Source: Paralichthys olivaceus
Taxonomy: Eukaryota; Chordata; Actinopteri; Pleuronectiformes; Paralichthyidae
NCBI RefSeq assembly: GCF_024713975.1
Contig: NC_091110.1
Location: 19,686,001-19,750,000, forward strand
DNA length: 64,000 bases
Reading direction: 5' to 3'
A program made the position numbers and the translations under genes. How positions within the stretch are numbered: position 1 is the first letter of the stretch; each line of letters begins with the position of its first letter. Of the stretch, positions 2,898 through 64,000 are shown piece after piece. The notes under the pieces were generated by a model. That model searched no databases. It saw only the letters and a program-made list of their open reading frames with translations, and was not told where the DNA came from.

Positions 2898-4131
2898 TTA
2901 GCAGGTGTTAGCAGGTGTTTGTAGGTGTTAGCAGGTGTTAGCAGGTGTTAGCAGATGTTAGCAGGTGTTTGTAGGTGTTAGCAGGTGTTTGTAGGTGTTA
3001 GCAGGTGTTTGTAGGTGTTAGCAGATGTTAGCAGGTGTTAGCAGATGTTAGCAGGTGTTTGTAGGTGTTAGCAGATGTTTGTAGGTGTTAGCAGGTGTTT
3101 GTAGGTGTTAACAGGTGTTAGCAGGTGTTAGAAGATGTTAGCAGGTGTTAGCAGGTGTTAGCAGGTGTTTGTAGGTGTTTGTAGGTGTTAACAGGTATTA
3201 GCAGGTGTTAGAAGATGTTAGCAGGTGTTAGCAGGTGTTTGTTGGTGTTAACAGGTGTTAGCAGATGTTAGCAGGTGTTAGCAGATGTTTGTAGGTGTTA
3301 ACAGGTGTTAGAAGATGTTAGCAGGTGTTAGCAGGTGTTAGCAGATGTTAGCAGGTGTTAGCAGATGTTAGCAGGTGTTAGCAGATGTTAGCAGGTGTTT
3401 GTAGGTGTTAACAGGTGTTAGCAGGTGTTAGAAGATGTTAGCAGGTGTTAGCAGGTGTTTGTAGGTGTTTGTAGGTGTTAACAGGTGTTAGCAGGTGTTA
3501 GAAGATGTTAGCAGGTGTTAGCAGGTGTTAGCAGGTGTTTGTAGGTGTTAACAGGTGTTAGCAGATGTTAGCAGGTGTTAGCAGATGTTTGTAGGTGTTA
3601 ACAGGTGTTAGAAGATGTTAGCAGGTGTTAGCAGGTGTTAGCAGATGTTAGCAGATGTTAGCAGGTGTTAGCAGATGTTAGCAGGTGTTAGCAGATGTTA
3701 GCAGGTGTTTGTAGGTGTTAACAGGTGTTAGCAGGTGTTAGAAGATGTTAGCAGGTGTTAGCAGGTGTTAGCAGGTGTTTGTAGGTGTTAGCAGATGTTA
3801 GCAGGTGTTAGCAGGTGTTTGTAGGTGTTAACAGGTGTTAGAAGATGTTAGCAGGTGTTAGAAGATGTTAGCAGGTGTAAGAAGATGTTAGCAGGTGTTA
3901 GTAGATGTTAGCAGGTGTTAGCAGATGTTAGTAGATGTTAGCAGATGTTTGTAGGTGTTAACAGGTGTTAGCAGGTGTTAGAAGATGTTAGAAGATGTTA
4001 GCAGGTGTAAGAAGATGTTAGCAGGTGTTAGCAGATGTTAGTAGATGTTAGAAGGTGTTAGCAGGTGTTAGAAGATGTTAGCAGGTGTTAGCAGATGTTT
4101 GTAGGTGTTAGCAGGTGTTAGTGGCCACCAG
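2898..4131. repeat. 10-bp minisatellite, about 1.2 kb
   Basis: Roughly 120 tandem 10-mers of a few interchangeable variants: TTAGCAGGTG, TTTGTAGGTG, TTAGCAGATG, TTAACAGGTG and TTAGAAGATG. Variants recur in longer blocks (for example around 3401-3600 and 3701-3830), which points to higher-order duplication. It lies between the sowahb start and the next transcription unit. Many units contain CAGGTG or CAGATG, which are E-box words. Confidence 0.95.
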
Positions 4132-39487: not shown

Positions 39488-40555
39488 TTTATTTTGTTAT
39501 ACATGTGAATTCTTTATTTCATGATTGAGATCAACTCATTTACTGCGCAGACAGTAACCGTGATTCTGATAAGGCACCGAGTTTAAACAAGCATGTGCAA
39601 ACACAGAAGGAGAAAAAATCATTCTGGAGAAATGTGCAATTCACATAAACATGTTTTAAAAAGAAAACACTTTAGTACTTAGAAAGATTCAAAATAGAGT
39701 TTTACATTTCACCAAAACCTAAAAATTAAATATGTAACACTGAACAAGAGACAGAAACATTAATAAAATAAAGGTACAGGTGTATAAATTAAAATATTTC
39801 ACAGCTCTGCAGCAGCTGATAAGATCGACTCCAGAATGAAAACTCAACAACTTAATTGTAAAGAAAACATTAATGTAACATCTTCTGACTGATAATACAA
39901 TATCTTAAGTTACAGTACTTTATCGTAGACTTTCTCGTTAATATCATAATATACATTAAGTCTGAATATATTTCTACACGATCTTTCTTCAAACTCAACA
40001 TTTCAAAAAATCTATTTCGGTAACAGTAGATTTTTTCCATATAAATATACAGATGTACGTTAAACATCAAATACTTTGTACAAATATAATCTATAGAGGC
40101 CAACCTATATATCAGTCGGCTCGTTCTGTATATTTGGTTGTATTTGTGTTTTCGTTTTGTAGTTGTTTAAAATAACCATTGTGGTAAAACGGTAACACGT
40201 CGATCCTCAGGTACGTTTCTTTGTCAGAAGGGTTTGATCACAGATTCTCTGTGATTTATATCTTTATCTTCTTTATCTTTATTTCTTTCAGTATCTGATT
40301 CTTTCCTCCCCAGTGTCCGAAATCTTTATCAGACTCGTTCTGAATTTCAGCAATTCTTCAAGTTGTAGGATTTTGTCTCCCACGTGTCTTTGCTGCTTTA
40401 AGACAGACACGTCCACCTGGTTTAAATAAAGCTGCACTTCTGTCCCTCTGAGCTCATGCTGGTGTTTGAATGAGGTGAGATCAGCTGCACTGTTGACACT
40501 CAGCTGCTAGGAATTATGGGTAAAGCTACGAGAATAAGACTCAGAAACAAACAAC
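39488..40555 (-). other. Probable 3' UTR of the MADF-repeat gene
   Basis: AT-rich sequence without an open frame runs from the stop codon to a minus-strand AATAAA at 39488-39493. Inferred from signal and composition. Confidence 0.4.
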
Positions 40556-43500
40556 CTAAACTTCCTCTGACGCGCTGTGGATCGTCTCGATTATCTTCTT
40601 CTTCAGTTTCTTCACTTTGTCCGGCGGCGTCTCGTTCAGACACTCCTCCACGTACTTCAGGAAGCCGGCGTGCGGCGACACCGTTTGACTGTGACAGAAC
40701 GTCCTCATGAAATCCAGCATGTCTCCGGTGGAGGGCGGCGCTCGTTTGCGCCCCGACACTCGGCTGCCGGTGTGAGAGGAGGATGTCGAGGGGGGCGGGG
40801 AGGAAGAGGGAGAGGATAGCCGGGAGTCTGGGGGAGTCGGTGAGGGCGGGGCTTCGAAGCCTCGCGGCGTGACGTTCAGCTTGACATCGGTTTGACTGTC
40901 AGTGTGGTAGTGTAGGGTGGGGGGCGTGGCCTTGCTGTCCAGGTGGAGGGGGATGGACTCCTGCGGTTGGTGGAAGTGGAGGTCTTCGGGTCGCTCGTCC
41001 TCGTCGCAGGAGTCACAGAGGAACATCAGATCCCGGTAATGTTTCCACTTGGGAAGGTAAAAGTCCTCAGAACCACACGTCTTGTTGGAACTCACCGCTT
41101 TGTGTTCCCGCTGGAAGATGGTTCGCAGGTTCCTGAACTTTGTCTTTATGTCGTCCACTGAAGAACGAAGAACAACAGAACCGTTAGTCTCCGCTGACAC
41201 GGACACGTAAAGAATGAATCTGCTCAGATCTCAGTTTGATCTGAAATGTCTCCATCAGCTCCATCGTCGTTACCTGTGAAGGGGACGGACTCGTTGTCCG
41301 ACAGGAGGCCGCTCAGCGTCTCCAACAGACTCTGCCTCAGCAGACGGTTCCTGTAACTCTCGGACTTGTGGTTCCACAGACAACTGCGCTCTGGAAGAAG
41401 AGAAACGACTTCAGCTCGCACATCATCTTACCTCACATCATACATTTAACAGATTCATTCTCTCAAAGCTCAGCAGCGACGCCACCTACCGGAGTAAAAT
41501 GAAATGAGCTGCTGAACTTTGGCCTCGCTCCAGTGGCAGCGGGACTCTGCGCTCGCTCTGCCGTCCGTCTCGAAAGGCACGGACACACAGAAACTCAGAG
41601 GGGAGGAGCTTGCGCAGGGTTTCGTGTCAGTTGGTGATGAAGATCGGGAGGTCGGGAGTGCGGCCGTTTGGTTTGATAGTTTGAGATTGTCTGGAGACGC
41701 AGAGAGGAGGGTTTGGTATCCGGAGCCGGTCCTGGCGCTGCTCTGGACAGAGGCGTTATTGACCTTGATGCTGTAGGTGGAGCTGGAGGAGAAGCTGCTC
41801 AGCGTGGAGGAGGGTGTTTGGTTCCCCTGCTCCACGTCCTTGTCGTCCCGCGGCATCGGAGCCTGCAGGTCGTCCGTGCCGTCGTCATCGTCCCAGGACT
41901 GGCAGAGGAAGAGCAGCTGCTGGTAGTGCTTCCATTTGGACACATAGAGTTTGTCGGACGCCTGGCTGGAGAGGACCGCCTTGAATTCACGGTTAAAAAC
42001 CGTCCGAAGGTTCTTGAACTTGCACTTTATGTCTTCAACTGCAAAACAACAACAAAGGAGTTGGATGAGTCAATTAAAGCTCTAAACTTGTTACAGGACA
42101 GTTTTCTGGACTCATTCTTCCGTAGTCAGTCTGTATAATGTTAAAGTGACTCTGCAACATTCCAGCTCTACGTAGCTTTTTGGAGACTTTTAGCTCATTG
42201 TTTTGGTTTTAGCAGCTCTTTAAACCCTTCGTATGCTAACTGCTCAGCACTGGAACATGGACTACAGGAAAGCTCCCAAAGTGAAGCCAAAACATCTTGA
42301 TTGCCCCCTGGTGGCTGGTTTCAGTATAGGTCTTATACTGACAGTGGTGACGGTTTAGGATGTTAAAGAAGAAGAACATTTGGATTTTTACCTGAGAAAG
42401 ACACTGACTGGTCGGACAGCTGAGCTCTCAGAACCTCCAGCAGCCTCAGCCTGAGCTGACGGTTGTTGTGGTTTTCAGATTTCTTGTTCCACAGACAGCT
42501 GTGTTCTACAACAACACACAACAACACACAACAACAACTCCTGTCAGCGCTCACTCTGTCTTTTATACATGAATCCCTCTGAGAATCATCCTGAAGCTTC
42601 AGTCTGTGTTTTTACCGGAGTAGAAGATGATCAACGCTCGCTCCCGCTCTTCGGTCCAGAAACATTTAACCATCATTTTGGAGGGGACGCAGGAGGACGA
42701 GGTGGAGGGGAAGGTGGGCAGGTTGGGGAGGAAGGAGATGATTAATCCCGGGGATGAATCGACCGTCTGGGTCGCTTCCTGTGGGAGAATCAGCGGCGAC
42801 GGCGGCTGGTCGTCGACGCCGTCGTCCTGGTCCCAGCAGCCCTGCAGGAACATCAGCTGCTGGTAGTGCTTCCACTGCGGCACGAACACGTCGTCCGCCC
42901 CACACACCTTGCTCGCCTTCACCATTTTGTACTGACGCTGAAAGGTGGTACGAAGGTTCTTGAACTTATTCTTAATGTCTTCCACTGGAAAGAAGCTTAA
43001 CATTAGGTTTTCTCCTGAATGCAGGCGTGAACGTCTCAGGATGTGTCGCGGTCTTACCTGTGAAGGGAACAGGCGGAGGCTGAGCGGACAGAAGGATCCT
43101 CAGGTGTTCCAGAGTTTTCCATCGCAGCTGCCGGTTCTTGTAGCTCTCTGACTTGTGGTTCCACAGACAGCTGTGATCTGAAGAGTGAAAAGAAAACAGA
43201 TGAATGAGCGCTCAGAGTGATGAAGAGGTTTTCACCACTGTCTATCAAGGTGTTGAGCTCCGACTGTGTCGTCCCACTCACTGAACTGTATCAACACCAA
43301 ACTATAATCAATGTAAGAAGTATTAAATATATCATGCACACAAATATATAAGAAAGTGTACATTAGTTTATAACCACAGCTTTATGATAATGTTCTGCTG
43401 AATATCGTCTTAATATCTTTTTTATAGTGTTTCTGGTCTGATCAGATTCTTTCATGTTGTTTACATGGTGACATCATAAAGTCACTGATTAATACTTTAT

Positions 43501-44179
43501 GTCATTAAACAACAGTCAGAAGTAAATACAACAGTCAGATGTTATTAAACAGTCAGATGTAAATAAACAGTCAGATGTAAATAAACAGTCAGGTGCAATT
43601 AAACAGTCAGTCACAAGTAAATACAACAGTCAGATGTTATTAAACAGTCAGATGTTGATAAACAGTCAGAAGTAAATAAACAGTCAGATGTTAATAAACA
43701 GTCAGTCAGAAGTAAATAAACAGTCAGAAGTAAATAAACAGTAAATAAACAGTAAATAAACAGTCAGATGTAAATAAACAGTCAGATGTAAATAAACAGT
43801 CAGAAGTAAATAAACAGTATATAAACAGTATATAAACAGTATATAAACAGTCAGATGTTATTAAACAGTCAGATGTTAATAAACAGTATATAAACAGTAT
43901 ATAAACAGTATATAAAGAGACAGATGTTCCTCCTGAACATCTGTCTCCAGTCGCTCCTCCATATCTGTGAACACTCGTCGCTCTCCTCGGGCAACAGTTG
44001 CCTCAGTTTGTTGCTGGTTCGAGAGAAGCGGGTGAAGAGAGGGAGTCAACCTGGAGCCGGAGGGAGGAGCAGGGCGAGAGGAGGAGAGCTGACTCACTGG
44101 AGAAGAAGCAGATCAACGTCTTCTCCTTCTCCTCGGTCCAGAATCTCTCCGCCGGGAAACTGAACGGAGCCGCCGCCAT
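40556..44179 (-). CDS. Triple MADF-domain protein with C-terminal BESS-like motif
   Basis: Exons 5'->3': 44179-44098, 43177-43058, 42984-42616, 42505-42392, 42038-41490, 41390-41274, 41157-40556; 1,953 nt, 650 residues (an in-frame upstream ATG at 44203 would add eight). Three MADF domains (about residues 12-110, 173-275, 395-500) each show the same pieces: FWTEE..LICFFS, then SCLWNHKSESYKNRQLR, then V(E/D)DIK.KF.NLRT.F.RE.K, then WKHY..L.FL. Each is split across three exons at matching positions, so the array grew by exon-set duplication. Residues about 598-648 (FLKYVEECLNETPPDKVKKLKKKI) resemble a BESS oligomerisation motif. MADF domains are Myb/SANT-like DNA-binding folds and MADF-BESS proteins are usually transcription regulators, so a nuclear role is inferred. 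I do not recognise a named gene. Confidence 0.82.
42268..42335 (+). repeat. Dispersed repeat copy with CTCF-like core
   Basis: AAAGTGAAGCCAAAACATC, then GATTGCCCCCTGGTGGCTGG, then CAGTATAGG, in an intron of the MADF gene. The reverse strand at 42303-42314 reads CCACCAGGGGGC. Confidence 0.5.
43503..43919. repeat. Imperfect minisatellite (AACAGTCAGATGTAAATAA type)
   Basis: Units of about 12-18 bp mixing AACAGTCAGATGT, AAGTAAATA and ACAGTATATA fill 420 bp of the first intron of the MADF gene. Homogeneous sub-blocks such as AACAGTATATA indicate ongoing slippage. Confidence 0.85.
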
Positions 44180-44203
44180 GTTGATGTTGCTCTGTCTGCT
44201 CAC

Positions 44204-47200
44204 GTGACTCCCTCCGCGGGCTGTGATTGGACGATCCCTCCGGGCTGCTCCCGACCGGCCCCGCCCGTTGCCCAGTAGAGGTCGCTATGGCAACGCGGAG
44301 GAAACGCTGCTGCACGTTAAAACTTTTATTTCTTACTTTTATAAACTAATGCAAATAAAACATTGTTTAAAAGCTTATGTTAGAAATAATTCACTATTAC
44401 TATAACAATAAACCTTAATTTAATGACTCTTAGAAAGAATTCACTATTATTATAACAACAAAATACGAAGTAATTTAATATTTGATTTTTTTTTACGGTA
44501 GTAGTAAATATATAATAGTCTAATTATACCAACAACTTATTTTACTCTCAAGGTCAAGTATGAACTTTCAATTAAAATGTCTTTTAATAAAAAAATGATA
44601 GAAATGTAATTGAAATATTCATATTGTTTATGTAAAAAAGTTATTTTTTAAGTTTCCATGTCCTACCAGAACACACTAAGTAAATAAAAAGTCACATCAT
44701 GCTCGTGTTGTTCCATTTTAATTTCCACTAACCTTGTACACTTTCAGACGAGACACTGGACAAAGTGTATTTACAGTGAATCCTTGTGTACATTTACTTT
44801 GCTCATATACATTCACTCCATGTATTTACAGTTTTACTGTCACTGAACCATCTGAATTTAATAACACTTGAGTATTTACGTGCACACTAATGTCCTAATT
44901 TATCATCTGGAGGTTTGAGGTTTTTGCACAGATTAAGAAAAGTCACTGAACTGCAGACGTGTTAATGTTTAAATAAAGTGTTGGATTCATTCATGGACTT
45001 TAAAAGCTGGGGATGAAAACATCATGTGACAGAATCAATGTGCATGTGAACACAGTCAGGTGTAAATAACAGAAGAATTATTATCTGTTGCAAAGTCTGA
45101 TCTGAACAATTGTTTTTTAATGGTTTAGCTGCACAAGAGGAATCAAACCTTCCACCACTTCCACCCACTGTTTTAGTGCCATTGAGCATCACAGGACAAA
45201 AACACAGAAGGAAAACCTTCTGATGAACCAGACTTCACTTCTACATTATTTACAGACCATAATATTCACATTTTTTCATGTACATTTTAAGGTCATAAAG
45301 GAAATAACTCTGTGCCACTTAAACTCTGTTAAACTCTCATAGAATCTCTGTCTGATGCTTCAAGTATAAATTCATTCACAGGATTTTCACTGTTGTCAGA
45401 CAGAAGAACCTCAAACCTGCAACACACGAGAGAGGAGACAAAAAAAACGTTTCCCTAAAATCTAACAGTGAAGGATCATGGGTAACAGAAATGACCGACC
45501 GATCTCATGGTGTAAAGGAAAAAAAACTGCTATAAATACATTTCAGTGCTATTAATATACTTGTATATACTTGACTCACATACTGTGTTTGGTGTTGTGT
45601 TGTGCTTGTCCTCGGAAGTTAGCGCCACACACACACGATATTAAGTCATAACATAATCTTAACTAACAAATGAAAACGAGATCTTCTCCACATTTGTTGA
45701 CATTTAAATGATGAACTGATGATGAACTGATGAGCCGAGAGCACGGTTGTGTTGTATTGTCAACATCTGGAGCACATGCAGGACGTGAAGGGCCTGACGC
45801 TAAATATTACCATTAAATATTCAAGAGTGAGCAACAGTGAACATATTGGTTATTAACACCGTGACGAAGGCACACGAGCCCCTGGAGACGTCATTTTAGT
45901 AATAACACAAATCAAAATGATATAAAATACGTCTCCTCTAAAGATGCAGTCCTGAGTGAACAGGAAAGATGTGTTGAAATGCTGGTTGTTATCGGATCTG
46001 CTTCAAATCACAGAATCTGTTGAGTTTAAAGTTCAAAAATTACACTGAAATTAAAAAATACAAATCTGAGTGTGCTCGGATTTCTCTCGGAAGTTAAAAC
46101 ACCAGGTTTGCAGCTCTGAGGTTTTTCCACCGTCAGCAGCCGGCAGCACCTTCATAAAGTGACAATGATATAAAAATAAGAGTAAAATGAGTAAAATCCA
46201 GGTTATGATTTAAAAACATTTTTCTGAGGTAGAGTGACAAACAATGGGGATAATAAGTGGTGAGATTAGGAGTGAAGCTTATACACTGAGGTCATTTTTC
46301 TAACTGACATTATTTCGTTTCTCGCAAAAAATATCAACAATAAACGTGTGGTCAAAGTGCACGGCCTGAAAAATGTTCCTACTTATTTAAAATCTAAAGA
46401 AATTTAAATAAAACAGGACTCTTGCCCCGTTGATGTACATTTCAATGTAATGGATGATTTAAATAGATATTTTGAAATCCTGGATTTCACTTGGTTGTCT
46501 CGTCTCTCAGATCTTCACATTCAAACCTTGGCATCAATAACTCAAACATTTAAAAAGAATAAAAATCCTTAAACTCAAAAGGGAAGAAAGTTTAACAAAG
46601 TACGTTTTCTCCAGCTGAGAGAGTAGAAACAGTTTCAGCTGCTGTAAATATGTTGCAGACGTGTTTGTTTTATACAATAACCAGTAAAAAATTAAACACG
46701 ACATTAAAATACGACGTTAAAATAAAACAGCTGAAGGTAAAAACACTTTTTCTTGTTTATAACAAAAAAAAAACCAATCAACAGTTTCAAGCTTTAAGAT
46801 GAACGAGAATCCTTCGTACGTACGTCTCTCTCTTCACATGATTGACAGCTGGTTCCTCGTCCTCTCAATCACATGATGGTTTCGTCCTCGGCCGTCGTTT
46901 TTTGTCCCACGTCCGTCTGTCGTTGTCTCCGTCTCCTCCGTTCAGAAAAATAATAATGACATCTTATTTGCAGCTCTTTGCTCCCGCCCCCTCGTTAGAG
47001 AGCCGTCCTCATTGGTCGCTCACGTGATGTTACCGTCTGTGCTCCTGATCGGTGACATTAGCTCCTCCTTCTGGTGGAGAGACGATGCTGTTGGAGCTTC
47101 TCGCTGTCAATCACCTTTTCCTGACTTTGGAGGTACTTAGTTCCACCCTGCGGCAAAAATCTTCATCTTTTTTTTTTTGCAAAATGTCAATCAGTGAAAC

Positions 47201-56900: not shown

Positions 56901-58688
56901 CTGACTGCTCACCATGATAAAGTACACACACTCACACACACTCACACACACACACACACTCACACACGCAACATGTCATGATTGACAGCTGGGACTGACC
57001 CGTGATGGGTTGAGCATGTGTATGGGTGGGACCTTGATACCGTGGTTCCATCCCCCTGATCCCTTCCGATGGACGCACCCGTCTCCAGGATATTTTGGCT
57101 TCATGTTTGCACAACAGCAGGAAGTGGAGACGAGTCGTCCATCTTTACAGTCTTAACAGTTCTCACTTGTTACGAGCACGTCAATGTTTTACAGTCATAA
57201 CACTAATTAAAGTGATTGACCTGAACACGTGTCCTCTGTCTCCATCAAGGACGTCTACTTGTTTGGTGGCAGAAGCTTCACTGAGGACGGCACAGAGACG
57301 TCGTCCAATGAAATCCACAAACTCAGTATTGGTGAGTGAGAAACTGAACGTCCGCTGAAGAGAACGATCATCCTGATGAGTCGTGGTCTTTTCACCCTGT
57401 GTCTCCAGCTAAGATGAAGTGGAAGGTTCCGCTCTACGTTGGGATTCCTCCGGCTCGTCGACACGGACACACGACGTTCATCCTCCGCAGTCACGTCAGT
57501 CATTCAACGCCTCACTCAGGTGGTCGTGGTCGTCGTTGTCATAATGTGGAATGAACTGTGTGTGTGTGTTGTGTTGACAGCTGTATGTGTTCGGGGGGAA
57601 GAATGAAGAGCAGGAGTTTAATGACCTGAAGGTGATGAAACTCATCAACCCCTCAGAGAGACAACCTGGTGCGTTGATCATTTGATTTACTAAAGATTTA
57701 TGGTTTCACTAATATTTGAGATTTATCTTTAAAACGAGATAAAAACCAAAGAGAAACAGTCGTCACACTTCTCCTCCTCAGTGATGAAGGAGATTCTGTC
57801 AGAGTTCGGTCTTCAGGGAGTCAGTCACAGGTGCGTTTCTCTTTCACCTCTTTCTGTTTCAGTGTCGATCAGCTTCAACAGTTTGGTTTCATTCTGGTTT
57901 TGACTGTTTTTACAGTTTCAGCCCCACAAAGGTCCCAAACGTTCGCTACGAGCTGAGCGACTCGGCTCCGAGCAGCCAGTCCAGGAACACGGCGGCTGAT
58001 CCTCAGGTGATGACGACACACTCCGAGTTCTTCGGAATCCAAACTGTAGCTTTGGCTCAATCATGTTGATTAAAAAAACTAAAAAAGTTTATTGTTATTG
58101 TTTTATTATTATCTACTTATATTCACTTATATTTTTCATGGAGACTTTAATTCAATATGTTTTATCTCCTGCAGACGTTTGTCCACAGAGATTTCAGTGC
58201 AGTTCGGGATCAGGCCATGAAGATGATCCAGGCGGCCTTCGCTCTGCTCGACCAGGAGTTCCACAAACTGGATCGGTACTCGTTCATTTGTTAAGTTTGT
58301 TTCTTTACATCGGACCACAGGTTAACACCTTCAATGAGAATCATTTATCTGGAGACGGACTTAACTCCCAACATTCATATAAACTAATAAACATGATTTA
58401 TTCCAGAGAGACGTCAGATTTGTCTAAAGCTGCTGCTGCTCTGCAGAAAGAGAAAGAAGCTCATGAGGCTCATAGACAACAGCAGCAACAGGTTTGTTAC
58501 TGTTTCAATAACCAACAGAAGTTAATTTATCAATAATGACTTTAATAAATCTCAGTTTATCCATTGACTCTATGGAGTGTACTTTAATGTAACCCAGTCC
58601 ACTCAATCTGCATAACCTGCTCTGATCTGTGCGTCCAAAACAATCTGATGTAGTTCACTGTCGTCAAATCGAATCAACACAAAGTAAT

Positions 58689-58745
<57 letters not shown>

Positions 58746-59129
58746 AGGAGCTGCAGGAGCTGCTGGACAGACATCGCTCTCAGAATGAGGCCTGGCTCCG
58801 AGCCCGAGCTGAGGAGAACGACCGCGAGAGGAGAGAACTGTGCCGACTCCGAGTCAGTCAAAACACACACAGCTTATATCTTATTCCCCTGATGACTTCA
58901 CATCTGGATTAATATTATATATATATATATATATATTTCATCACAATGTTTCATCACAATGTTAAAGACAAGACGGACAAGAGAGTGAATCAAACTGTCT
59001 CTGTCTGTCTGTCTGTCTCCTCAGGAGGAGGTGCAGCAGGAGCAGGAGAGACTGAAGGAGGAGCAGAGCAGCATCCAGAAACGTAGTGAACATCTTCTGT
59101 CCATCATGCAGCAGTTCAAAGGGATGTGA
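53977..59129 (+). CDS. Six-kelch-repeat protein with C-terminal coiled coil
   Basis: Coding exons: 53977-54038, 54236-54305, 54417-54459, 54653-54731, 55366-55454, 55545-55691, 55973-56024, 56174-56274, 56836-56921, 57250-57331, 57409-57494, 57581-57668, 57782-57830, 57916-58006, 58175-58275, 58407-58491, 58748-58852, 59025-59129; 1,521 nt, 506 residues. Six kelch blades show the double-glycine words FLFGG, LYLFGG, IYVYGG, LFMFGG, VYLFGG and LYVFGG, predicting one beta-propeller. The last about 110 residues are charged heptad-like helix (ERLKEEQSSIQKRSEHLLSI). It resembles RABEPK-type kelch proteins but has the added coiled coil; I cannot give a firm name. The start has a strong context (AACATGG). 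A weak upstream ATG at 53969 opens a five-codon frame (MSTWP) that overlaps the start. AATAAA lies at 59188-59193. Confidence 0.85.
58691..58744. repeat. (GT)n microsatellite at the kelch exon 17 acceptor
   Basis: About 54 bp of GT ends directly at the CAG acceptor of exon 17. The second copy (62256-62304) is 4 bp shorter. Confidence 0.95.
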
Positions 59130-59242
59130 GACAGACAGACAGACAGAGAGACAGACACAGAGAGACAGATGTGGATGATAAACCTTCAATAAATAACCAT
59201 TAAAGTTTGAAAGTTAAAAAGTTTCTGATCATCGTTACAAAC

Positions 59243-61062
59243 CGTTCACGACATTGAGCCACGCAGAGCGATGAGAGAATCCGATGGAGTTTCCTCCCAG
59301 ACACGTGTACTCGCCGGCGTCCTCCAGAGACACGTTCCTCAGGGTCAAGACATCCGTCTCTTTATCTGTGGTGTTCAAACTGACAGTCTGAGGACGAGAG
59401 CAACGCCACGTTAGAGAGGGGCCTCTCAATCACAACAACAACAAGACTCAGGGTGTTTGGAAAGTCCAAATCATCTCCTCCCCTAACCACTAAATCATCT
59501 CCTCCCCTAACCACTAAATCATCTCCTCCCCTAACCACTAAATCATCTCCTCTCCTAACCACTAAATCATCTCCTTTCCTCACCACTAGTCCTCGACCCC
59601 GATGGAATACGAGGTCAAGCAAAGTGAGATGTAACAAACTTCCACTTCAAAAACAAATGCTTGATTGACAGTACAGATATTTACAGGTTTGAGCTCAGAT
59701 GTAACAGGTCTGATGATTTCACTCTGGCCTCAGTGAAGCGGCTCCCTCACCTTGAGGATCAGGACGTAGGGGTGTCCGTCCGGTCCCTCCTTGCTGCCAT
59801 TGACGATGATGTGTTTGAGCCACTGGATGTGAGGCTGCGGGTCGCTGAACACCCGACACACAAACTCCACGTCACTACCAACGACCACCGTCTGGTTAGC
59901 GGGCAGACCGGCCTGCAGCATCGGTCTGTGAGGACACCGCTCTGGAAAAGACGAGACAGAGGACATCCTCACATCTGTTTCTCTCAGGAGACGTTTTCAG
60001 ACCTGCACTGAAGTCTGGACATTTTCCTGAAATGTTCTGGAGGTTCTGTACGTGAGAACGCCAGCTCCATCATAAAACATCTGGAACCTTCTCAGTGAGT
60101 GGGCGTGTCTCTGAGGTTTCTAACACGTGACGGACGTGAAACTGAAGAACTCAAATGTCTCAGGATGAAGAAGAGGAGTCGTACACGTAGAAGACGAAGA
60201 CGTCAACTTGGAAAGACGAGGAGGTTCCAGATGTTTTGGTGATGAGGCCGATGCCGTGTGGACGAGCTGTAAACAACAACACTGATCTTTACACAGCGGA
60301 GTTTAGATGCCATGTCCCGCCTCCTGCTGCTCTACAGGCTCCGCCCCTCGCCTGAATGTCCCCCACGTGTTCCTGTTGTTGTGAACGAGTCGTGAAACAC
60401 TGACGACACAACATGTTACACAGTTCATGTGTGAAAACGTCTCAGGATGAGAACATGTCCGACAGTTAACACGTCATCATCGTGATCAAACGTTTCTTAC
60501 CAAGTACGTCCAGCAGGTACGTGTGTCTCAGGCTCCCGTGCTCGTTCTCCACCACACACGTGTAGTTCCCTTTGTCTGACGGAACCACTGACTCCATGAT
60601 CAGAGTCCACATGTGGTCTCTGATCTGACAGAGACAAACACATCAATTCTAACAACTGTTTACCAGACTTGGTTTTTTTCTCTGATCGGTCGAACACGAA
60701 CCTTGAAGCCTCCGATCCTCTGGTCCTTCCTGAACTCTTTTCCGTTCTTGTACCAGTGCAGAGAGGGAACAGGGTTTCCCGTCGCCTGGCACCTAAACTT
60801 CACAGTCCGACTGGCGGGAACGGCGTGGAGCTGCTTCTCCATCTTCTCCGGCGTCACCCACTGAGGCGCCAACGCTAACAAGGAGACACCAGCACGATTA
60901 CAACCCTTCACGTTTGCACCAGACGAGCAGAGACAGAGGAGGAGAGAGTGTGAGACTCACGCTGGAGCTTCTCGTTGCTCGTTGAAAGTTCATTGGAGAG
61001 TTTGTTTTCCTCTGAGGATGACTCATCGTCTTCTTCATCCTCAGACGACTTCACTGCGTCGA
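59243..61062 (-). CDS. fgfr1: FGFR1-type receptor, extracellular exons only (acid box to Ig3-IIIc)
   Basis: Exons 5'->3': 61062-60961 (acid box, [14 protein letters not shown]), 60874-60702 (Ig2 start, [16 protein letters not shown]), 60624-60501 (Ig2 end, [18 protein letters not shown]), 59941-59751 (Ig3a, [21 protein letters not shown]), 59387-59243 (IIIc, [16 protein letters not shown]). Sizes 124, 191 and 145 nt equal the usual FGFR exon sizes as I recall them. The acid box and KMEK...HAVPA point to FGFR1, possibly a teleost duplicate. FGFRs are FGF/heparan-sulphate receptor tyrosine kinases. Here no IIIb exon, transmembrane segment or kinase exon follows: the kelch gene ends 114 nt beyond. 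Read-through of the IIIc donor stops after two codons, which would give a secreted ectodomain. Signal peptide and Ig1 are not seen. Confidence 0.8.
59465..59588. repeat. 24-bp minisatellite, five units (copy 1)
   Basis: Units of AAATCATCTCCTCCCCTAAC plus CACT, in the intron between the FGFR Ig3a and IIIc exons. The corresponding array at 63026-63197 has seven units. Confidence 0.95.
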
Positions 61063-61096
61063 CTGCGAGCAAAAGATAGAGATGTTTAAAAGCTGT

Positions 61097-61138
<42 letters not shown>

Positions 61139-61204
61139 AGGGGGCAGATTAACCTCTGACCTCTGCTCAGTGAACAGAGTCGCTGTGAATCAAGCTTCAA
61201 GCGA

Positions 61205-61270
<66 letters not shown>

Positions 61271-62022
61271 CCATCTTTATCTACAGTCTGTGCTCCTGCT
61301 GTAATAATCTGACATTAGAGCTCTCCAGATGTTGTCCTCTGTGTAACCTGCTGACGCCCTGTCACCCCCCCCCTCCTCCCTCCTCCCTCCTCCCTGAATG
61401 ATCTGCAGCCTTTCACTCTGTTTCATTTCCAGTCAAACTGAAGGTGAACAGATAGAAAAACTACGTCTGAGACGAACCTCTGGGACTTTCTGTAGATCTG
61501 TGTGTTGTGGTGAATGCAGATGATGGTAAACGTGCGGCGGCTGTGAAACACATCAAACGGTTTATAAAAAGCACGAGGAGCCGAAGCAGAGTCGACTCTG
61601 GACTGATCCTCGTCTCAGCGGTTTGATTTCAGAGGATAAAGTTTCGTCTGAACGAGGTGGAGAATTAGAAACAGGTTTTGTTTATGAACGCAGACGACAG
61701 CAGAGAGTTTGAATGTGACGCTGACTGAGAGGAAAAAATGAATTTACAGGCTCAAAAAAACAACACACAGCTGGAGTCCAGATGTTTGGAAGAAAAACGA
61801 CCCTCACAGAAGGTAGATTCAGTTTGTGAACATTCACACAAACTCAGAGAAAAGAGATTTCTGCAGATCTAATCTCACACACACACACACACACTGAGCT
61901 GCAGTAACACACTCTGTTTTTATTCATGTTTGAAACGATCACTTCTTTACTGGAAAATCACAGATCTGCACCTTCATTGTAATTTTAAAGACATCATCAG
62001 TTTTGATTTATAAAAAACTCCC
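61063..62022. other. Region upstream of the FGFR acid-box exon, no exon recognised
   Basis: Holds (GT)n with (GA)n at 61096-61140, a long (CA)n at 61207-61268 and otherwise no open frame of note. No Ig1 or signal-peptide exon was identified before copy 2 begins. Confidence 0.5.
61207..61268. repeat. (CA)n microsatellite
   Basis: About 62 bp of uninterrupted CA upstream of the FGFR acid-box exon. Confidence 0.95.
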
Positions 62023-62253
62023 AGCTCATGAGGCTCATAGACAACAGCAGCAACAGGTTTGTTACTGTTTCAATAACCAACAGAAGTTAATTTATCAATA
62101 ATGACTTTAATAAATCTCAGTTTATCCATTGACTCTATGGAGTGTACTTTAATGTAACCCAGTCCACTCAATCTGCATAACCTGCTCTGATCTGTGCGTC
62201 CAAAACAATCTGATGTAGTTCACTGTCGTCAAATCGAATCAACACAAAGTAAT

Positions 62254-62306
<53 letters not shown>

Positions 62307-62690
62307 AGGAGCTGCAGGAGCTGCTGGACAGACATCGCTCTCAGAATGAGGCCTGGCTCCGAGCCCGAGCTGAGGAGAACGACCGCGAGAGGAGAGAACT
62401 GTGCCGACTCCGAGTCAGTCAAAACACACACAGCTTATATCTTATTCCCCTGATGACTTCACATCTGGATTAATATTATATATATATATATATATATTTC
62501 ATCACAATGTTTCATCACAATGTTAAAGACAAGACGGACAAGAGAGTGAATCAAACTGTCTCTGTCTGTCTGTCTGTCTCCTCAGGAGGAGGTGCAGCAG
62601 GAGCAGGAGAGACTGAAGGAGGAGCAGAGCAGCATCCAGAAACGTAGTGAACATCTTCTGTCCATCATGCAGCAGTTCAAAGGGATGTGA
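62023..62690 (+). pseudogene. Duplicated 3' tail of the kelch gene
   Basis: Contains the end of exon 16 (to 62056), exon 17 (62309-62413) and exon 18 (62586-62690) plus AATAAA at about 62749. No exons 1-15 precede it, so it can be used only as alternative last exons if transcription passes the first poly(A) signal. Confidence 0.75.
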
Positions 62691-62803
62691 GACAGACAGA
62701 CAGACAGAGAGACAGACACAGAGAGACAGATGTGGATGATAAACCTTCAATAAATAACCATTAAAGTTTGAAAGTTAAAAAGTTTCTGATCATCGTTACA
62801 AAC

Positions 62804-63550
62804 CGTTCACGACATTGAGCCACGCAGAGCGATGAGAGAATCCGATGGAGTTTCCTCCCAGACACGTGTACTCGCCGGCCTCCTCCAGAGACACGTTCCT
62901 CAGGGTCAAGACATCCGTCTCTTTATCTGTGGTGTTCAAACTGACAGTCTGAGGACGAGAGCAACGCCACGTTAGAGAGGGGCCTCTCAATCACAACAAC
63001 AACAAGACTCAGGGTGTTTGGAAAGTCCAAATCATCTCCTCCCCTAACCACTAAATCATCTCCTCCCCTAACCACTAAATCATCTCCTCCCCTAACCACT
63101 AAATCATCTCCTCCCCTAACCACTAAATCATCTCCTCCCCTAACCACTAAATCATCTCCTCTCCTAACCACTAAATCATCTCCTTTCCTCACCACTAGTC
63201 CTCGACCCCGATGGAATACGAGGTCAAGCAAAGTGAGATGTAACAAACTTCCACTTCAAAAACAAATGCTTGATTGACAGTACAGATATTTACAGGTTTG
63301 AGCTCAGATGTAACAGGTCTGATGATTTCACTCTGACCTCAGTGAAGCGGCTCCCTCACCTTGAGGATCAGGACGTAGGGGTGTCCGTCCGGTCCCTCCT
63401 TGCTGCCATTGACGATGATGTGTTTGAGCCACTGGATGTGAGGCTGCGGGTCGCTGAACACCCGACACACAAACTCCACGTCACTACCAACGACCACCGT
63501 CTGGTTAGCGGGCAGACCGGCCTGCAGCATCGGTCTGTGAGGACACCGCT
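62804..63550 (-). CDS. fgfr1: Duplicated FGFR1-type exons (Ig3a and IIIc), partial
   Basis: Ig3a at 63550-63360 and IIIc at 62948-62804 are intact with the same splice sites as copy 1. The matching Ig2 and acid-box exons should lie just past the right edge if the block is complete. IIIc ends in phase 1 and the copy 1 acid-box exon starts in phase 1, so splicing across the repeat would stay in frame. Confidence 0.7.
63026..63197. repeat. 24-bp minisatellite, seven units (copy 2)
   Basis: Same unit as at 59465-59588 with two additional perfect copies. Confidence 0.95.
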
Positions 63551-64000
63551 CTGGAAAAGACGAGACAGAGGACATCCTCACATCTGTTTCTCTCAGGAGA
63601 CGTTTTCAGACCTGCACTGAAGTCTGGACATTTTCCTGAAATGTTCTGGAGGTTCTGTACGTGAGAACGCCAGCTCCATCATAAAACATCTGGAACCTTC
63701 TCAGTGAGTGGGCGTGTCTCTGAGGTTTCTAACACGTGACGGACGTGAAACTGAAGAACTCAAATGTCTCAGGATGAAGAAGAGGAGTCGTACACGTAGA
63801 AGACGAAGACGTCAACTTGGAAAGACGAGGAGGTTCCAGATGTTTTGGTGATGAGGCCGATGCCGTGTGGACGAGCTGTAAACAACAACACTGATCTTTA
63901 CACAGCGGAGTTTAGATGCCATGTCCCGCCTCCTGCTGCTCTACAGGCTCCGCCCCTCGCCTGAATGTCCCCCACGTGTTCCTGTTGTTGTGAACGAGTC

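Follow-up and report, generated by a model that had tools for sequence, protein, structure and literature searches.

The window analysed here, 64,000 nucleotides of Paralichthys olivaceus (NC_091110.1, given below as C18:19686001-19750000), closes with two adjacent head-to-tail copies of a composite unit in which the last exons of a kelch-repeat gene are joined to ectodomain exons of the fibroblast growth factor (FGF) receptor FGFR1. In kind, the block is an ordinary segmental duplication, and from its sequence it is probably a recent and real one. Judged by the alignments, the FGFR1 exons of the window do not belong to the FGFR1 gene itself but were copied, in truncated form, from part of an FGFR1-like gene located elsewhere on the same chromosome (the parent). 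Because these exons are a partial copy of a distant gene, the history of the block comprised at least two steps and the duplicated unit is a composite of kelch gene and FGFR1 fragment.

A self-BLAST of the window recovered positions 58458-60391 again at 62023-64000, in the same orientation and with an offset of 3,565 bp (1,982 columns, 2 mismatches and 2 gaps). The following parts were delimited:

58458..62022, no strand assigned: copy 1, a composite unit of 3,565 bp made up of kelch 3' exons and FGFR1 fragment
62023..64000, no strand assigned: visible part of copy 2, equivalent to 58458-60391 and running past the window end
59468..59588, plus strand: 24-bp minisatellite in the intron between the immunoglobulin (Ig) exons IIIa and IIIc, with 5 units, 7 in copy 2 (63029-63197) and 3 in the parent

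In a global alignment of the two copies, 1,928 identities and 2 substitutions were counted among 1,930 aligned bases, the final 4 gap columns being an effect of the point at which copy 1 was cut. The substituted sites are 59319 G / 62880 C and 59727 G / 63336 A, which corresponds to a substitution rate of 2/1,930 with a 95% interval of 0.013-0.37% (interval from 1,926 sites). The copies also differ in a GT run, with 54 bp in copy 1 and 50 bp in copy 2 (4 bp, two units fewer), and in the minisatellite, which is 48 bp longer in copy 2. A preceding sequence-only reading had described a head-to-tail duplication of 3,565 bp restarting at 62023, nearly identical over about 2 kb apart from a shorter GT run and two extra 24-bp units, and both alignments confirmed this description. 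Of the 3,565 bp, the window includes the initial 1,934 bp of copy 2 with the kelch 3' exons and two Ig-III exons; copy 2 would also contain the Ig-II and acid-box exons farther on. The pair of copies was the sole self-match of at least 500 bp and at least 93% identity in the window, and no other such match was present in the window, in the following 70 kb (5 kb of which are N) or in the 100 kb around the parent gene. A repeat of this kind is thus far beyond chance expectation, and haplotype duplication is not a general feature of the area read.

Two junctions define the unit and its repetition:

59202..59203, no strand assigned: J1, from the kelch 3' flank to an FGFR1 intron, present in both copies (alignment)
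62022..62027, no strand assigned: J2, from FGFR1 intron 1 to a kelch exon, with the 5-bp microhomology AGCTC at 62023-62027 (alignment)

At J2 the window tracks intron 1 of the parent unbroken to 62027 (...ACTCCC AGCTC), and from 62023 it tracks the kelch exon (AGCTC ATGAGG...) as copy 1 does at 58458, so that AGCTC is common to both partners. When the two sources were joined at random 200,000 times, at least 5 bp were shared at the join in 0.7% of the trials; the test was picked after J2 had been inspected, and the homology is therefore taken as support and not as proof. Junctions of complex insertions have been described with, among others, 1-6 bp of microhomology, and iterative template switching was proposed for them (PMC5120786).

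The FGFR1 fragment contains five FGF receptor exons that together span 59.24-61.06 kb on the minus strand:

59203..62027, minus strand: FGFR1 fragment (acid-box, Ig-IIa, Ig-IIb, Ig-IIIa and Ig-IIIc exons), partial copy of the parent C18:20330645-20334171 (alignment)
59242..59389, minus strand: Ig-IIIc-type exon of copy 1, approximate bounds; 10/148 bases differ from the parent
59752..59943, minus strand: Ig-IIIa-type exon of copy 1; 5/192 bases differ from the parent
60504..60624, minus strand: Ig-IIb exon, approximate bounds (alignment and translation)
60705..60880, minus strand: Ig-IIa exon, approximate bounds (alignment and translation)
60967..61062, minus strand: acid-box exon, approximate bounds (alignment and translation)
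60074..60422, plus strand: dispersed repeat of about 350 bp in the intron between Ig-III and Ig-II, also present in the parent gene and at many further sites (genome search)

The translation of the fragment matched Ig families and identified the Ig-II and Ig-III ectodomain exons as related to FGFR1. With the five exons joined, the best structure-databank match was the FGFR1 chain 8jqi_B (E=1.4e-116), in a search with 226 distinct sequences above the cut-off, of which 60 were listed. The adjoining kelch part belongs to a gene on the plus strand with further kelch exons upstream, back to about 55.36 kb at least:

57220..59129, plus strand: last exons of the kelch-repeat gene, with a charged, Q/E-rich C-terminus and a stop at about 59127-59129 (translation and Pfam kelch families)

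The joined translations of the kelch exons matched Pfam kelch families (PF24681, E=1e-30), and the second kelch piece, in copy 2, opens in the middle of an exon. The names given to both sets of exons in the sequence-only reading are thereby upheld, the kelch exons by the Pfam search and the FGFR1 ectodomain exons by the rank of FGFR1 chains among the databank sequences. Its framing as a recent real duplication, the chief alternative being a haplotype duplication, was also fair; what it did not recognise is that the FGFR1 exons are a partial copy of a distant gene.

The parent was located by a search of the species' own genome (assembly of 588 Mb on 25 contigs) with window 59000-60500 as query. 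In this search 40 of 1,737 candidates were scored, and the resulting counts are therefore lower bounds. The 46 matches listed comprised the window copy, copy 2, two rows at C18:20330645-20332219 and 42 other rows; the latter were limited to query positions ~979-1437, and 37 of them (37 of the 46 listed) represent the dispersed repeat at query ~1074-1423, which lies on at least 15 contigs. At about 585 kb from the window fragment, on the minus strand of the same chromosome (C18 20.328-20.334 Mb), lies an FGFR1-like gene with kinase exons. Its tyrosine-kinase frames (L020 8315-9565) matched Pfam PK_Tyr_Ser-Thr with E=1.2e-17 and 4.7e-11, and a transmembrane segment (frame L021 82-624), a signal-peptide frame (L021 4170-4388) and the same ectodomain exons are present. 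The DNA between the two loci was covered chiefly by the genome search with window 59000-60500.

Over 2,771 aligned bases, window 59203-62027 and parent 20330645-20334171 differ by 45 substitutions; two parental stretches, of 301 and 398 bp, have no counterpart in the fragment. Read by eye, the alignment extends from the intron after Ig-IIIc to intron 1, where it breaks off roughly 46 bp before the signal-peptide exon. When the whole window was compared with the 100 kb around the parent, DNA matches above the cut-off covered only window 59203-61917 and 62764-64000; below 58458 the matches were short, and no further common DNA above the cut-off was found except for simple tandem repeats in the flanking sequence. 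The idea that FGFR1 kinase exons are hidden in the window was rejected. A six-frame motif scan of the window detected neither an HRDLA-type site nor a kinase-type DFG site, the DFG strings being located in frames without other kinase motifs, and the comparison with the parent region gave ectodomain matches and short repeats only. By the same two approaches no signal-peptide, transmembrane or tyrosine-kinase exon was found with the FGFR1 piece of the window.

A history in three steps probably accounts for these data. The order and alignment of the parts at J1 are directly visible; the segment of the FGFR1-like gene that reaches from intron 1 into the intron behind Ig-IIIc would have been copied to a place about 585 kb away on the chromosome and attached to the kelch 3' flank. 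The copied piece would then have diverged, its middle probably being kept parent-like through gene conversion. Finally, a replication- or repair-based template switch at AGCTC would have joined FGFR1 intron 1 back to the kelch exon, leaving the junction J2 that is seen in the sequence. The outcome would be at least two head-to-tail units which since then acquired one substitution each and changes in repeat number. At the two substituted sites the parent matches copy 1 at 59319 and copy 2 at 59727, and therefore one private change is assigned to each copy. The FGFR1 piece was clearly copied before the two units split, unless the units are alleles or were homogenised.

The divergence between fragment and parent is unevenly distributed: 19/505 substitutions fall in the left part, 5/192 in Ig-IIIa, 15/1,965 across the middle and 6/113 in the right part. 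The middle is far closer to the parent than the two ends are (15/1,965 vs 25/618, Fisher p = 1.9e-7), and the low-divergence tract 59971-61897 was reached in 0 of 500 permutations. Gene conversion between parent and copy appears to be the simplest reading of this pattern; a mosaic source may also have produced it. At the 12 residue positions in Ig-III at which copy 1 and the parent differ, counted by eye, 8jqi_B has the parental residue at 8, the window residue at 2 and neither of them at the remaining 2. Most of the Ig-III changes, not all of them, are therefore placed on the window side.

The assembled sequence contains no N anywhere in the window and thus none between the copies. Together with the microhomology at J2 this makes a tandem duplication that is real and recent more likely than a haplotype artefact, but does not amount to proof. 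Several observations weigh against a real duplication, in addition to the late choice of the microhomology test. The GT run, the minisatellite units and the two single-base differences are differences that two alleles would show too. Copy 2 reaches the window end, where the bases directly beyond read N before a right border appears, and the block sequence was not found in the 30 kb tested past this N stretch, so that the end of the array, which a true duplication requires, was not seen. The head-to-tail arrangement is moreover known from a single assembled sequence.

It is conceivable, at clearly less than even chances, that the duplication is real but confined to one haplotype, or that it opens a longer array with at least three units. 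The second unit vanishes into the N stretch, the differences in repeat number suit a changing array, and one study mentions a tandem duplication that is specific to one allele and lies on one contig (PMC9516828). No direct sign of a third unit was seen: in the genome search the FGFR1-type matches to window 59000-60500 were the two window copies and the parent only, among the 40 of 1,737 candidates scored, and the 30 kb tested past the N stretch held no block sequence.

A false duplication, in which an assembler or gap filler set the alleles of a single-copy block of kelch and FGFR1-fragment sequence end to end, is somewhat less plausible still and is rated unlikely. An overlap of 5 bp seems too short for an assembler, a shared sequence of this length is improbable for an arbitrary join (0.7%), no second such pair occurred in the regions read, and the copies follow each other without an intervening N. 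The allele-like differences between the copies agree with a false duplication, as does the extension of copy 2 to the edge of the N stretch: false duplications are reported to lie next to gaps and to show half read depth (PMC9516828). In the same study, the two copies of a false duplication are mostly parted by a gap or by sequence that no reads support, and no gap lies between the present copies.

The duplicated parts are probably pseudogene fragments without a product. This view is based on the lack of any signal-peptide, transmembrane or kinase exon found with them, on the drift of the Ig-III exons and on the mid-exon start of the second kelch piece; since copy 1 also leaves the kelch gene its own 3' end, the copied exons most likely yield no product. 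Relative to the parent the Ig-III exons carry 13 nonsynonymous and 2 synonymous changes, which is compatible with drift in the absence of constraint. The ratio of 13:2 is no different from 3:1 (p = 0.38), and positive selection on these exons is not claimed. The Ig-IIIc exon diverges more than the adjacent introns (10/148 vs 9/353, p = 0.037), a weak difference that is uncorrected for multiple looks. Expression of the fragments as a soluble, kinase-less, FGF-binding decoy would fit the five open exons, their AG/GT splice sites, kept as judged by eye, and the read-through of the last exon, which stops after ...NVVNGL; it is considered highly improbable given the end of the copy short of the parental signal-peptide exon, the Ig-III changes, which are compatible with a lack of constraint, and the alteration of the DAGEYTC motif to EAGEYTC (D to E) in copy 2. 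Scarcely more probable is an array, young and variable in copy number, in which the truncated FGFR1 copies would still trade sequence with the active FGFR1 by gene conversion and so provide the receptor with a reserve of altered Ig-III (ligand-binding) exons.

Other parts of the window contain further features. A Shroom-type gene with an ASD1 domain match occupies about 10-38 kb on the minus strand; taken with the kelch and FGFR1 sequences, it gives a gene content that points to a fish. On the same strand, window 40500-44284 holds several mutually similar MADF/Myb-SANT-like frames, one of which matched PF10545; with DNA self-matches of 71-83% they possibly form a small local family. A large minisatellite array of about 1.2 kb with periods of 10/20/50/70 bp and TTAGCAGGTG units lies at 2898-4121, and a complex AT-rich array with AACAGTCAGATGTAAATA units as base at 43499-43928.

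If the duplication is real, it documents a two-step rearrangement at the nucleotide level, in which a partial gene copy was displaced by about 585 kb and a tandem duplication via 5 bp of homology came next, with an apparent return of sequence by conversion to a developmental receptor gene. If it is an artefact, false exons would be added to the annotations of the kelch gene and of FGFR1. In either case an annotation of the window exons as 'FGFR1' would be wrong, since the gene with the kinase exons lies elsewhere.

Among the papers listed by a literature search, titles and abstract openings gave no account of such a partial duplication of FGFR1. The block resembles tandem duplications attributed to microhomology-mediated end joining (MMEJ), fork stalling and template switching (FoSTeS) or microhomology-mediated break-induced replication (MMBIR) in its head-to-tail unit, the 5-bp homology at the join and the inclusion of a segment from elsewhere on the same chromosome; unlike the described cases, the event here was deduced from one assembly without a pre-duplication allele or the right border of the array. 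With heterotype false duplications (PMC9516828) it shares near-identical adjacent copies, allele-like differences and a position at the edge of an N stretch, whereas the present copies have no gap between them and a microhomology at their join. An FGFR-like ectodomain without kinase is also found in FGFRL1, the kinase-less FGF receptor (PMC12026108), but the window piece is a recent partial FGFR1-like copy without signal-peptide or transmembrane exon and is not FGFRL1. Partial-gene segmental duplications, known as duplicated pseudogene fragments, are similar in that exons and introns were copied together, signal-peptide and kinase exons are missing, and drift as well as apparent conversion with the parent are observed. 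Unlike typical members of this group, the window exons are still open and form a composite unit with the 3' end of another gene.
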